This document shows, one piece after another, positions 36,863 to 40,006 of a stretch of DNA of 53,662 nt. The position numbers and the translations under genes are program-made. The notes under the pieces are model-generated. The model did no database searches. It had not been told where the DNA came from and saw only the letters and a list, made by a program, of their open reading frames with translations. The stretch comes from Enterobacterales bacterium. Lineage in GTDB: Bacteria; Pseudomonadota; Gammaproteobacteria; Enterobacterales; Enterobacteriaceae. How positions within the stretch are numbered: position 1 is the stretch's first letter; each line of letters starts with the position of its first letter. The stretch is from positions 1 to 53,662 of the forward strand of contig JAATGH010000353.1 in NCBI GenBank assembly GCA_015654745.1, given 5' to 3'.

Positions 36863-37576
36863 CTAGCCTATCAGCGCGCGCCAGCCATAGGACAACGGCA
36901 CCACAAACAGCAGCGCCGGCAAAAAATTCACTACGGCAAATATTTTAATCTGGGCAATGCGTAGCCCTACCGCCACCATGATGATGCCGCCGCAGGCCGA
37001 GAAATCCGCGAACGCCCCCTGATCCATATACGGCATTATCCACAAAGCCAGTCCAAATAACGTGCTCTGTACCAGCAACTGCGGAATAGCGACCACCACC
37101 AGTAGGCCGCCAAGCGAAATCGCAAAAATCATGGCCGTAAAAAAGTCCATAATCGATTTCACCAATAGCAACTGATAATTGCCATTGAGACCCTCGGTTA
37201 ATGCGCCGACAATGCCCAGCCCGCTGGCGCAAAATAGAACAATCATGGCGGTAAAGCTTTGCGCAAATTCCGCCGGTGGCAAGGCGCTACGGGTTTTGAC
37301 TACTTTGGATAAAGTACGCTGCAGTTTGCCCGCCACCCACTTGACCCCCCACTCCAAAGACAGTAACTCACCTAACGTGGTGCCCAAAATCAGCGCGAAG
37401 ATCACCGCCGGCATATTTTGGACTTTAATCACCATAACGATACCGATGGAAATCGATGCCAAAGCGAAGGTCGCGGGCAGTCCCTCCCGCAAGCGTAGCG
37501 GAACATAGCGGGCAAATGACATTCCCAACAACCCACCGCAGATAATGGCTGCGCTATTTAGCCATGGTCCTACCAT
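36863..37576 (-). CDS. yqgA: DUF554 membrane protein, YqgA-like
   Basis: The ATG at 37576 follows GAGGTGGTT. The 237-residue protein is almost the length of E. coli YqgA and has about seven hydrophobic segments with conserved GPWLNSAAIICGGLLGMSFA at the start. The function of DUF554 proteins is unknown. It lies 65 nt upstream of the DppA-like gene on the same strand, so they might share a transcript. Confidence 0.82.
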   Translation of the reverse strand: MVGPWLNSAAIICGGLLGMSFARYVPLRLREGLPATFALASISIGIVMVIKVQNMPAVIFALILGTTLGELLSLEWGVKWVAGKLQRTLSKVVKTRSALPPAEFAQSFTAMIVLFCASGLGIVGALTEGLNGNYQLLLVKSIMDFFTAMIFAISLGGLLVVVAIPQLLVQSTLFGLALWIMPYMDQGAFADFSACGGIIMVAVGLRIAQIKIFAVVNFLPALLFVVPLSYGWRALIG

Positions 37577-37753
37577 AACCACCTCATTCTATTAACCTTA
37601 GAAAGCGTTATCCTAGCCCAATCGGACCGGCGGCGGTGAGTTTTTACGTGCGTATTTTATTCTTGCGTGGATAGGCTTACCGCCTAAAAAACATTGGCTT
37701 AAGCCCTGCCATGATCGCTGATTAAAAACCTTTTTTGCCGTCAGCATATTTTG

Positions 37754-37798
37754 TTGATCTCAGACAGCGGATAACGGCATAATATACGTAACGTATAT
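37754..37798 (+). promoter_or_regulatory. Promoter and palindromic operator of the parD-like/map operon
   Basis: TTGATC (37754-37759) and CATAAT (37778-37783) form a sigma-70-like pair with an 18-bp spacer. ATATACGT-A-ACGTATAT (37782-37798) is a perfect 8-bp-arm palindrome that overlaps the -10 end and expected start site, 20 bp before the ParD-like ATG. This is the position of an antitoxin autorepressor site. Confidence 0.55.
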
Positions 37799-37817
37799 AA
37801 ACCGTATAAGGACGATC

Positions 37818-38084
37818 ATGGGGATTGTAAAAGTGTCCGATGGCATCCACGAGTGCCTGCGCATCGCCAGCAGCGCGCTTTGCCGATCGATAAATGCGCA
37901 GGCTGAGCATTGGCTGCGGGTGGGGATGTTGGCCGAATTGCACCCTGAATTGGGGCATCGGGATATCTGTCGGCTGCTTATCCAATTGGAACAATCGGGT
38001 GGAATTACCCTATCCCGCGCCGCCGCGTTGAAGGAGGTTGAACCGACGCTGCCAACCCGCGACCATAAAGAGGAACAACTATGA
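37818..38084 (+). CDS. ParD-like antitoxin-family protein
   Basis: The 88-residue protein matches the ParD-like family known to precede a methionine aminopeptidase in enteric genomes (MGIVKVSDGIHECLRIASSA then SINAQAEHWLRVG). The ribbon-helix-helix pattern lies in the first 40 residues. TAAGGACGATC contains its ribosome-binding site. No toxin gene of the ParE kind follows; map overlaps its stop by 4 nt. A palindrome upstream suggests self-repression. Whether it controls or binds Map is unknown. Confidence 0.75.
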   Translation: MGIVKVSDGIHECLRIASSALCRSINAQAEHWLRVGMLAELHPELGHRDICRLLIQLEQSGGITLSRAAALKEVEPTLPTRDHKEEQL

Positions 38085-38857
38085 ATCATTCCGTTTCCAC
38101 TAAAACTCCCGCTGAAATAGCGCTGGCGCGGGAGGCGGGCCGACTGGCCGCTGACGTGCTGGCAATGGTGGTGCCCTATGTCAAGCCTGGAGTGACCACC
38201 GATGAATTAGACCGCATTTGCCATGACTATATTGTCGATGTCCAAGGCGCCATACCGGCAAATATTGGCTACCACGGTTATACCAAGACGACCTGTACGT
38301 CGGTAAATCATGTGGTATGCCACGGCATCCCTTCGGATAAGACCTTAAAATCAGGGGACATTGTCAATATTGACGTGGCGTTAATCAAGGACGGCTGGTA
38401 TGGCGATACCAGCCGCATGTACTATGCCGGGGAACCCGCACCCTGGGCCAAACGCCTGGTGGATACTACCTATGAGGCGATGTGGGCGGGGATTAACAGT
38501 GTGCGGCCTGGCGCAACGCTTGGGGATATCGGTTATGCGATCCAATCGGTGGCCCACCGTGAAGGGTATAGCGTGGTGCGCGAATACTGTGGCCACGGTA
38601 TTGGCCAGATTTACCATGATGAACCGCAGGTGCTGCACTATGGAAATCAGGGCGAGGGGCTGAAACTCAAGACGGGCATGATGTTTACTATTGAACCCAT
38701 GTTAAACGCCGGCAAGGCACAGACCAAAACCTTGCATGATGGGTGGACGGTTGTGACCAAAGATCGCTCGCTCTCGGCCCAATGGGAACATATGGTGGTA
38801 GTCACCGGCGACGGGGTAGAGGTGTTGACGCCCTGGCCCGACAGGATTGCCGGATAA
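38081..38857 (+). CDS. map: Type I methionine aminopeptidase
   Basis: The 258-residue enzyme has all five metal ligands: D98, D109, H172, E205 and E236. It also has substrate-pocket residues around CHGIPSD (about 80-86). It removes initiator Met from nascent proteins in the cytoplasm. Its ATG overlaps the ParD-like stop codon, so expression is coupled. Most Enterobacterales carry an essential map elsewhere (by rpsB), so this is probably a second copy, perhaps specialised or conditionally expressed. Confidence 0.9.
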   Translation: MNHSVSTKTPAEIALAREAGRLAADVLAMVVPYVKPGVTTDELDRICHDYIVDVQGAIPANIGYHGYTKTTCTSVNHVVCHGIPSDKTLKSGDIVNIDVALIKDGWYGDTSRMYYAGEPAPWAKRLVDTTYEAMWAGINSVRPGATLGDIGYAIQSVAHREGYSVVREYCGHGIGQIYHDEPQVLHYGNQGEGLKLKTGMMFTIEPMLNAGKAQTKTLHDGWTVVTKDRSLSAQWEHMVVVTGDGVEVLTPWPDRIAG

Positions 38858-39004: not shown

Positions 39005-40006
39005 TTAGTACGCGGCGATTTTGTCCAGCACCCGCACGAGCTGGGTAACGAAGCCGTATTCGTTATCATACCAGGAGACGGTTTTCACCAACTGCAGATC
39101 GCCGGCTTCGCTGACCTCCGTTTGGGTGGCGTCAAACACCGATCCGAAGTGCGTGCCGACGATATCCGACGAGACAATTTCCTCGTCGGTATAACCGAAC
39201 GATTCATTACCTTAGGTGGTTTTTTTCACGGCGGCGTTGACTTCCTCAACGGTGACCTTTTTCTCCAATACCGTCACCAATTCCGTTACCGAGCCGGTAA
39301 GCGTCTGCACGCGCTGGGCGTGGCCCTTCAGCTTGCCGCTAAGCGCGGGGATCACCAGTCCGATGGCCTTCGCGGCCCCGGTGGTATGGGGAATAATATT
39401 TTGCGCGGCCGCTCGCGCCGCACGCAGATCTTTCCCGCGTGGGCCATCAACCAGAGACTGCGTTCCGGTATAGGCATGGATGGTGGTCATGGTGCCCACT
39501 TTAATGCCGAAACTGTCATTAAGGGCTTTGGCCATCGGCGCCAGGCAGTTGGTGGTGCAAGACGCGACGGAAATCAGCTGGTCTTCCGGCGTGATCGTAT
39601 CGCTATTGACGTTAAAGACGACGGTTTTCATGTCTCCGGCGGGTGCGGAGATCAGCACTTTTTTCGCGCCCGCGTCCAAATGCGCGTGCGCCTTTTCGCT
39701 AGAGGTATAAAAGCCGGTGGACTCAACCACTATCTCTACCCCAATCGCCCCCCAGGGAATATTTTTCGCGTCTTTTTCAGCATAAACGGCGATTTTCTTA
39801 TCGTTAACCACAATCGCATCATCGGTGTAGCTTACCGTGCCGCTAAAGTTACGATAGCTCGAATCATGCTTTAATAAATACGCCAATACCTTGGGCGAGG
39901 TCAGATCGTTAATCGCGACGATCTCTACTTCGCTGTGGGTTTCCAGAATCCGGCGCAGGACTAAACGTCCAATACGGCCAAAGCCATTAATACCGATCTT
40001 TTTCAT
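39005..40006 (-). pseudogene. gapC: gapC-type glyceraldehyde-3-phosphate dehydrogenase, interrupted by an in-frame stop
   Basis: Full-length GAPDH homology runs from the ATG at 40006 (GAGGAGTT upstream) to a natural TAA at 39005-39007, 333 codons. Codon 265 (39212-39214) is TAA, after KKTT and before [11 protein letters not shown], where related enzymes have Lys or Ser. One base change (AAA to TAA) would explain it. Nucleophile C150 and H177 are intact, but the truncated product loses 68 residues of the catalytic domain. The sequence resembles gapC more than housekeeping gapA. E. coli K-12 gapC is also a pseudogene, so repeated decay of this locus is plausible. A sequencing error is the alternative. 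Confidence 0.85.

Follow-up and report, generated by a model that had tools for sequence, protein, structure and literature searches.

The window analysed here is a whole stretch of 53,662 nucleotides from an Enterobacterales bacterium, and it carries a small gene of the ParD_like family (PF11903) which runs into a complete map gene coding for a type I methionine aminopeptidase (MetAP). Most probably the two genes constitute a dedicated autoregulated repressor-enzyme operon, widespread in Pseudomonadota, and not a toxin-antitoxin module. This reading is based on the linkage of the two genes, their operator, the accessory status of the enzyme, their inheritance as a unit and the contrast with a toxin-linked group of the same family. 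Pairing, overlap, conservation of the operator, intact catalytic residues and accessory status in other genomes were seen by comparison of sequences. For DNA binding, repression, stoichiometry and translational coupling we infer the following from these comparisons. The ParD_like ribbon-helix-helix protein would bind a 26-bp operator, probably as a pair of dimers, and when bound would hold down its own synthesis as well as the synthesis of an accessory type I MetAP. The map gene would be translated via its overlap with the first gene by translational coupling, and lifting of the repression would result in the production of extra MetAP.

The ParD_like gene (37818-38084, plus strand) codes for 88 amino acids beginning with MGIVKVSD and matches the PF11903 profile over residues 1-67 with a score of 90.8 bits (E 5.4e-26, cut-off 23). 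The type I map gene (38081-38857, plus strand) codes for 258 amino acids and matches TIGR00500 with 310.8 bits (E 6.4e-93, NCBIfam cut-off 171.35) and also PF00557. Both reading frames are open and the ATGA at 38081-38084 is common to the stop of the first gene and the start of the second, just as an earlier sequence-only reading of this DNA had described. The same reading had seen no ParE toxin at the pair, and this was confirmed. No known toxin family lies beside the ParD_like gene, its partner being the PF00557/TIGR00500 protein, and eight other open reading frames of 53-109 amino acids between 37725 and 39045, on both strands, had no Pfam match above the cut-off. PADLOC gave no match for the ParD_like protein or for the Map. 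Upstream and divergent from the pair is a DUF554 gene (36863-37582, minus strand), which is matched three more times in the source assembly (one match being short) and also in other genomes of the genus. Downstream is a gapA-like gene for GAPDH (39011-40006, minus strand), the only match to the GAPDH protein in the source assembly; its frame is interrupted by a TAA at codon 265 and continues beyond it, a sign of either decay or a sequencing error. In the other five genomes of the genus the DUF554 and gapA matches are on separate contigs, or far apart (G399). The pair therefore sits in a variable region, and the existence of a larger conserved neighbourhood was rejected.

Of the 398 Pseudomonadota genomes sampled, 109 contain PF11903, with 117 places in all (loci L007-L123). 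A search of the genus added five places to give 122, of which 119 were sorted by the presence of Met-Gly followed by Ile, Leu or Val, set at a constant spacing from the predicted strand. Rows dropped were the duplicates L002, L126, L134 and L135 and three weak, unsortable places (L121-L123) unmatched by a second profile. Fifty of the 119 loci, 48 from the phylum sample and two from the genus, start with Met-Gly-Ile or Met-Gly-Leu and are followed directly by a type I map, and the remaining 69, among which L072, L115 and L119 are cut by contig ends, have neither; the adjacency of map was scored independently of the start rule, and as Gly2 was part of that rule, it is its two-way fit with linkage to map that carries weight. 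A candidate map start is present at -8 to +4 nt of the ParD_like stop in 47 of the 50 Map-linked loci. The overlap is 20 nt in L019 and 11 nt in L033, and in L032 the first map start is 100 nt downstream. The downstream genes of the 69, a group referred to here as toxin-type, are of a different nature: 45 of the 57 that were scanned (those loci with a downstream open reading frame by the rule used) code for PF15781 ParE-like toxins and four match Zeta toxin. In L094, which belongs to the 69, a map lies at a distance of 758 nt. In L155 (G399:C1:1236853-1237026) a toxin-type ParD_like frame continues, as judged by eye, into ParE/RelE-like sequence, and it is possible that this is an antitoxin-toxin fusion.

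The pair was met again in larger collections. In a set of one genome per species covering 84,980 species, at least 591 relatives of the ParD-like protein were present. A later set of 84 loci was made up of the best 80 of these at least 591 relatives and four from viral contigs, and map lies within 200 nt in 83 of the 84. The exception, L291 (IMGVR_UViG_2579778904_000002, a viral contig), is a repressor gene without a recognisable map downstream. As many as 162 plasmid records contain a relative; map is the next gene in all three examined, and the annotation of these three reads 'ParD-like family protein' and then 'type I methionyl aminopeptidase'. A phage origin finds little support, since none of 50,697 phage records matched the ParD-like protein at E 1e-5 and IMG/VR contigs yielded four relatives. 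The partnership, which had appeared at first as an oddity, is thus a widespread one, seen at 50 of the 119 loci and then at 83 of the 84.

It had been proposed that the pair has its own palindromic operator at 37782-37798. The sequence there, ATATACGTAACGTATAT, is indeed a perfect 8-1-8 palindrome of 17 bp, and shuffling of the 90 nt upstream did not give a palindrome scoring as high in any of 60 trials. It belongs, however, to a larger element, a 26-bp putative operator TATACGTAACGTATATAAACCGTATA at 37783-37808, of which it forms the left part except for its own first base. The larger element contains two overlapping 15-bp palindromes, one perfect (37783-37797) and the other with one mismatch (37794-37808), with centres 11 bp apart. 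The pattern TATAYGNNNCRTATAYGNNNCRTATA was drawn by eye from the first 50 Map-linked promoters, and the window operator has one mismatch to it. With up to four mismatches allowed, the operator was found in the 110 nt upstream of the start in 47 of the 50 Map-linked ParD_like genes as compared to 2 of 1000 shuffles and none of 50 stretches taken 310-420 nt upstream; the fit is poor, with 5 to 8 mismatches, in the other three promoters (L058, L062, L023). At the same limit it was absent from all 68 toxin-type promoters, which represent those of the 69 loci with enough upstream sequence, and it was absent from 54 unlinked map loci even when five mismatches were allowed. The later loci have it in 84 of 84 against none of 82 control stretches, and these loci are the closest relatives of the window protein and not a broad independent set.

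Among 131 operator sites, 71 begin 36-37 nt and 24 begin 47-48 nt before the start codon. Longer operators resembling at least four half-sites in a row were seen upstream of L037, L040, L048 and L055. A promoter-like site, TTGATC-18-CATAAT (37754-37783, plus strand), touches the window operator and was picked up by a consensus scan with 9 of 12 matches; the scan is weak, as it gave two sites in the region with 1.4 expected by chance. Across the 131 loci no conserved -35 position stands out before the operators, and TTGACA-like sites number 38 as against 23 in shuffled stretches. In a scan of the source assembly the window operator was the sole match at up to three mismatches, and a backward control pattern matched once per strand. 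From this sole site the repressor looks to be a local one in the source organism, and a regulon was rejected. A stray antitoxin-like gene lying by chance next to a duplicated map has nothing in its favour except the single locus, and linkage in 50 of 50 and 83 of 84 loci together with a common operator rules this explanation out for practical purposes.

The protein itself was compared with its toxin-type relatives. Invariant in the 50 Map-linked proteins are M1 (the start codon, which is GTG or TTG in two of the 50), G2, H11, R15, R23, S24, N26, Q28, A29, W32, G36 and E40. The predicted model (mean pLDDT 77.6) has an extended segment at 1-7 and helices at 8-21, 25-41 and 47-59, and its tail from residue 75 is of low confidence and is also the least conserved part of the Map-linked proteins. 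PF11903 is placed in clan CL0057, MetJ/Arc (PMC5728571). Foldseek gave no match of the model to the PDB at E 0.001 or better, VIA-align 2 with 30 chains gave a best Z of 3.1 and no ribbon-helix-helix in four rows, and against PDB sequences a profile search found nothing under E 0.88 and a single-sequence search nothing under 0.14, absences which prove nothing for so small a protein when it is modelled as a single chain. As these searches returned no such fold, the ribbon-helix-helix assignment comes from the Pfam family, and the window protein is probably a ribbon-helix-helix autorepressor.

An antitoxin-like family, overlapping genes, an operator of their own and co-inheritance are what one would expect of a true type II toxin-antitoxin system, in which Map would act as the toxin, for instance through excessive trimming of N-termini, with the ParD-like protein as antitoxin. 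This is very unlikely. The partner is an intact MetAP with its metal ligands present in 50 of 50 cases, and E. coli Map is routinely overproduced. A C-terminal Y..F tail, which presumably holds the toxin in the toxin-type relatives, is found in 39 of 69 of those proteins but in none of the 50 Map-linked ones. Moreover, in a tree of the repressors with 16 toxin-type relatives (of the 69) the 50 Map-linked proteins fall on one side with a support of 100/99, a tree in which long branches were flagged and the repressors of group A, described below, no longer form one side of a branch. Antitoxin-style repression of map, as first put forward, can be retained in so far as coupling, operator and likely repression are concerned, given the conserved pairing and overlap and the conserved operator. 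The word antitoxin is not supported for this separate group, which lacks the tail and is partnered with a MetAP.

The linked enzymes, 50 in number, fall in two groups in a tree built from 104 Maps. Group A comprises 34 rows (support 100/100) and group B 16 rows including the window Map, plus the unlinked L183 (99/94). The well-supported branches of this tree require at least two changes of the linked/unlinked label. L183 (G322:C3:302382-303119) belongs to group B and is accompanied by neither repressor nor operator; its genome also carries a group A pair, and the only PF11903 match there lies away from L183. Either this enzyme has parted from its repressor, or it represents its kind as it was before pairing. 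When the 50 repressors are placed in a tree, the partners of A and B separate at 93/90, a value that rests on few columns and is just below the firm-support mark of the program. ParD_like distances correlate with linked-Map distances with r 0.79 and with unlinked-Map distances with 0.31, over 49 pairs, the window being left out as it is without an unlinked map. The corresponding values are 0.82 and 0.43 within A, and 0.61 and 0.37 within B, and none of 2000 permutations reached the linked correlation within A, nor likewise within B. One genus has both kinds, type B in G398 and type A in G401, which suggests that the pair moves laterally.

Such tight co-inheritance, with each repressor sub-clade keeping its own Map lineage and with ParD_like proteins that differ in length by lineage (66-74 and 78-91 amino acids), raises the question of direct contact. 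Excess Map could bind the repressor and either tighten or release its hold on DNA, in the way toxins act in conditional cooperativity. This is conceivable, with perhaps one chance in several, but the tail of the ParD_like protein is the part least conserved and modelled with low confidence, and just five Map columns are common to both linked lineages when compared with unlinked Maps, none of them exclusive.

The metal ligands of MetAP listed in PMC2238726, D97, D108, H171, E204 and E235, are together with H79 and H178 (E. coli numbering) present in the window Map and in all 50 linked Maps. The P1 subsite of E. coli MetAP is made of C59, Y62, Y65, C70, F177 and W221 (PMC10724148). The window Map is 59.4% identical to the E. 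coli enzyme and has N59, Y62, Y65, C70, Y177 and W221, thus differing in P1 at 59 and 177 only. Its chemistry should be that of an ordinary MetAP, judging from these residues. N59 and Y177 are found in all 16 group B Maps, along with Y62 in 16 and C70 in 13. In group A (loci among L019-L064 and L156) four of the six P1 residues are replaced, with S59, Q62, N70 and M177 in 34 of 34, and these enzymes may differ in the first residue they accept or in their substrate or inhibitor profile. The P1' residues C78, E204, M206 and Q233 show no change in any of the 50 linked Maps.

The map of the window had been called a second one; in the source assembly it is the single type I map. The assembly is of 5.05 Mb and 83.68% complete. 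No match to rpsB was obtained in it, and for glnD there was only one match of 21.7 bits, which is below the cut-off. In the E. coli record map lies between rpsB and glnD; these usual neighbours and any housekeeping map are thus missing from the source assembly together, perhaps in one gap. Each of the other five genomes of the genus contains a type I map with a higher score, which groups with the E. coli map. Among the 50 genomes carrying the pair, two type I maps are present in 48, three in G322 and one in the source assembly; outside the source organism the linked map is an accessory copy in 49 of 49 carriers.

An extra copy in every other carrier, with four of six P1 residues changed in 34 of 50, could also be a reserve enzyme that withstands MetAP inhibitors, in which case the repressor would merely keep the enzyme off till needed. 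The Y62-Y65 loop of the pocket also holds inhibitors (PMC2238726). The window Map, on the other hand, is of the other kind and keeps Y62, Y65, C70 and W221. Type I MetAPs in which Met replaces Phe177 are more sensitive to ovalicin and not less so. This explanation is therefore given a low probability in comparison with control of an accessory enzyme by its own repressor.

For the repressor-enzyme operon, our leading guess is that the signal lifting the repression would be MetAP activity itself, read through the Met-Gly start of the repressor. Gly2 is present in each of the 50 PF11903 proteins encoded immediately upstream of map, whichever the Map lineage, and in 84 of 84 later loci, 134 of 134 in total, although the rule used to sort the 50 included Gly2 and the 84 were found with two peptide patterns, one of which includes MGIV. 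The four codons for Gly all occur, which places the constraint on the protein. MetAPs in general need a small second residue (PMC10724148), and in the eukaryotic cytosol a small, uncharged second residue, Gly being one, usually leads to removal of Met (PMC10381334). The Met-Gly start would thus be a MetAP substrate on the very strand expected to enter DNA. With ample MetAP the Met would be cut and the processed protein would repress; if MetAP is scarce or inhibited, the Met or formyl-Met would be retained, the binding would fail or the protein would be unstable, and the spare MetAP would be turned on by the failed repression. In group A (34 of 50) the rebuilt pocket may act on the altered first residue or escape inhibitors. 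The strict start, followed by Ile or Leu in the 50 and seen by the same rule in none of the 69 others, is in favour of the repressor being such a built-in sensor of methionine-excision capacity. However, residue 2 is cleavable in 66 of 69 toxin-type proteins as well (A in 29, P in 20, S in 14, T in 3), taking as start the ATG nearest the strand, so that cleavability alone does not mark the Map-linked group and the strict Gly calls for a different or additional explanation. This may be structural, such as packing against DNA. The sensor in this full form is an improbable refinement of the operon.

Known systems share parts of this arrangement. Like the ParD_like/ParE-like pairs (PF11903/PF15781), the pair has a first protein of the same Pfam family, encoded by a small gene often overlapping its partner. 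It differs from them in its MetAP partner, its own operator type, the lack of the Y..F tail and the strict Met-Gly start, which is one residue closer to the strand. In Mycobacterium sp. MHSD3 a zeta-type toxin is reported to harm E. coli and to be neutralised by its PF11903 partner (PMC5728571); there too a PF11903 protein is partnered with an enzyme, a zeta-type toxin in that case and a MetAP here. The linked Map is like the housekeeping E. coli Map in matching TIGR00500 and in its metal ligands, whereas the housekeeping locus has no operator of this type and the window enzyme differs at P1 positions 59 and 177. MetJ, NikR and CopG are small dimeric autoregulated ribbon-helix-helix repressors with palindromic operators about one helical turn apart. 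Unlike in those systems, the regulated gene here codes for a MetAP in the same operon. No description of a ParD_like-map pair was found in the open-access literature, a body that excludes preprints and most subscription papers, nor was a paper found there for the variant name MetAP1n. In PMC3948609 the terms 'methionine aminopeptidase' and 'ribbon-helix-helix' both occur, in passages that assign them to unrelated genes. The system is most likely a conserved regulator-enzyme operon made from known parts.

Bacteria do not survive the loss of all their MetAP genes, and the enzyme is a possible target for antibacterial agents (PMC10724148, PMC2238726). The probable repressor together with its linked map is present in 48 of the 398 sampled Pseudomonadota genomes. 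Public gene labels reading 'ParD-like' include a large group of proteins which are probably not antitoxins. The pair offers a concrete operator and a concrete protein for testing. A conserved dedicated repressor over a spare map suggests that many bacteria regulate the excision of N-terminal methionine.
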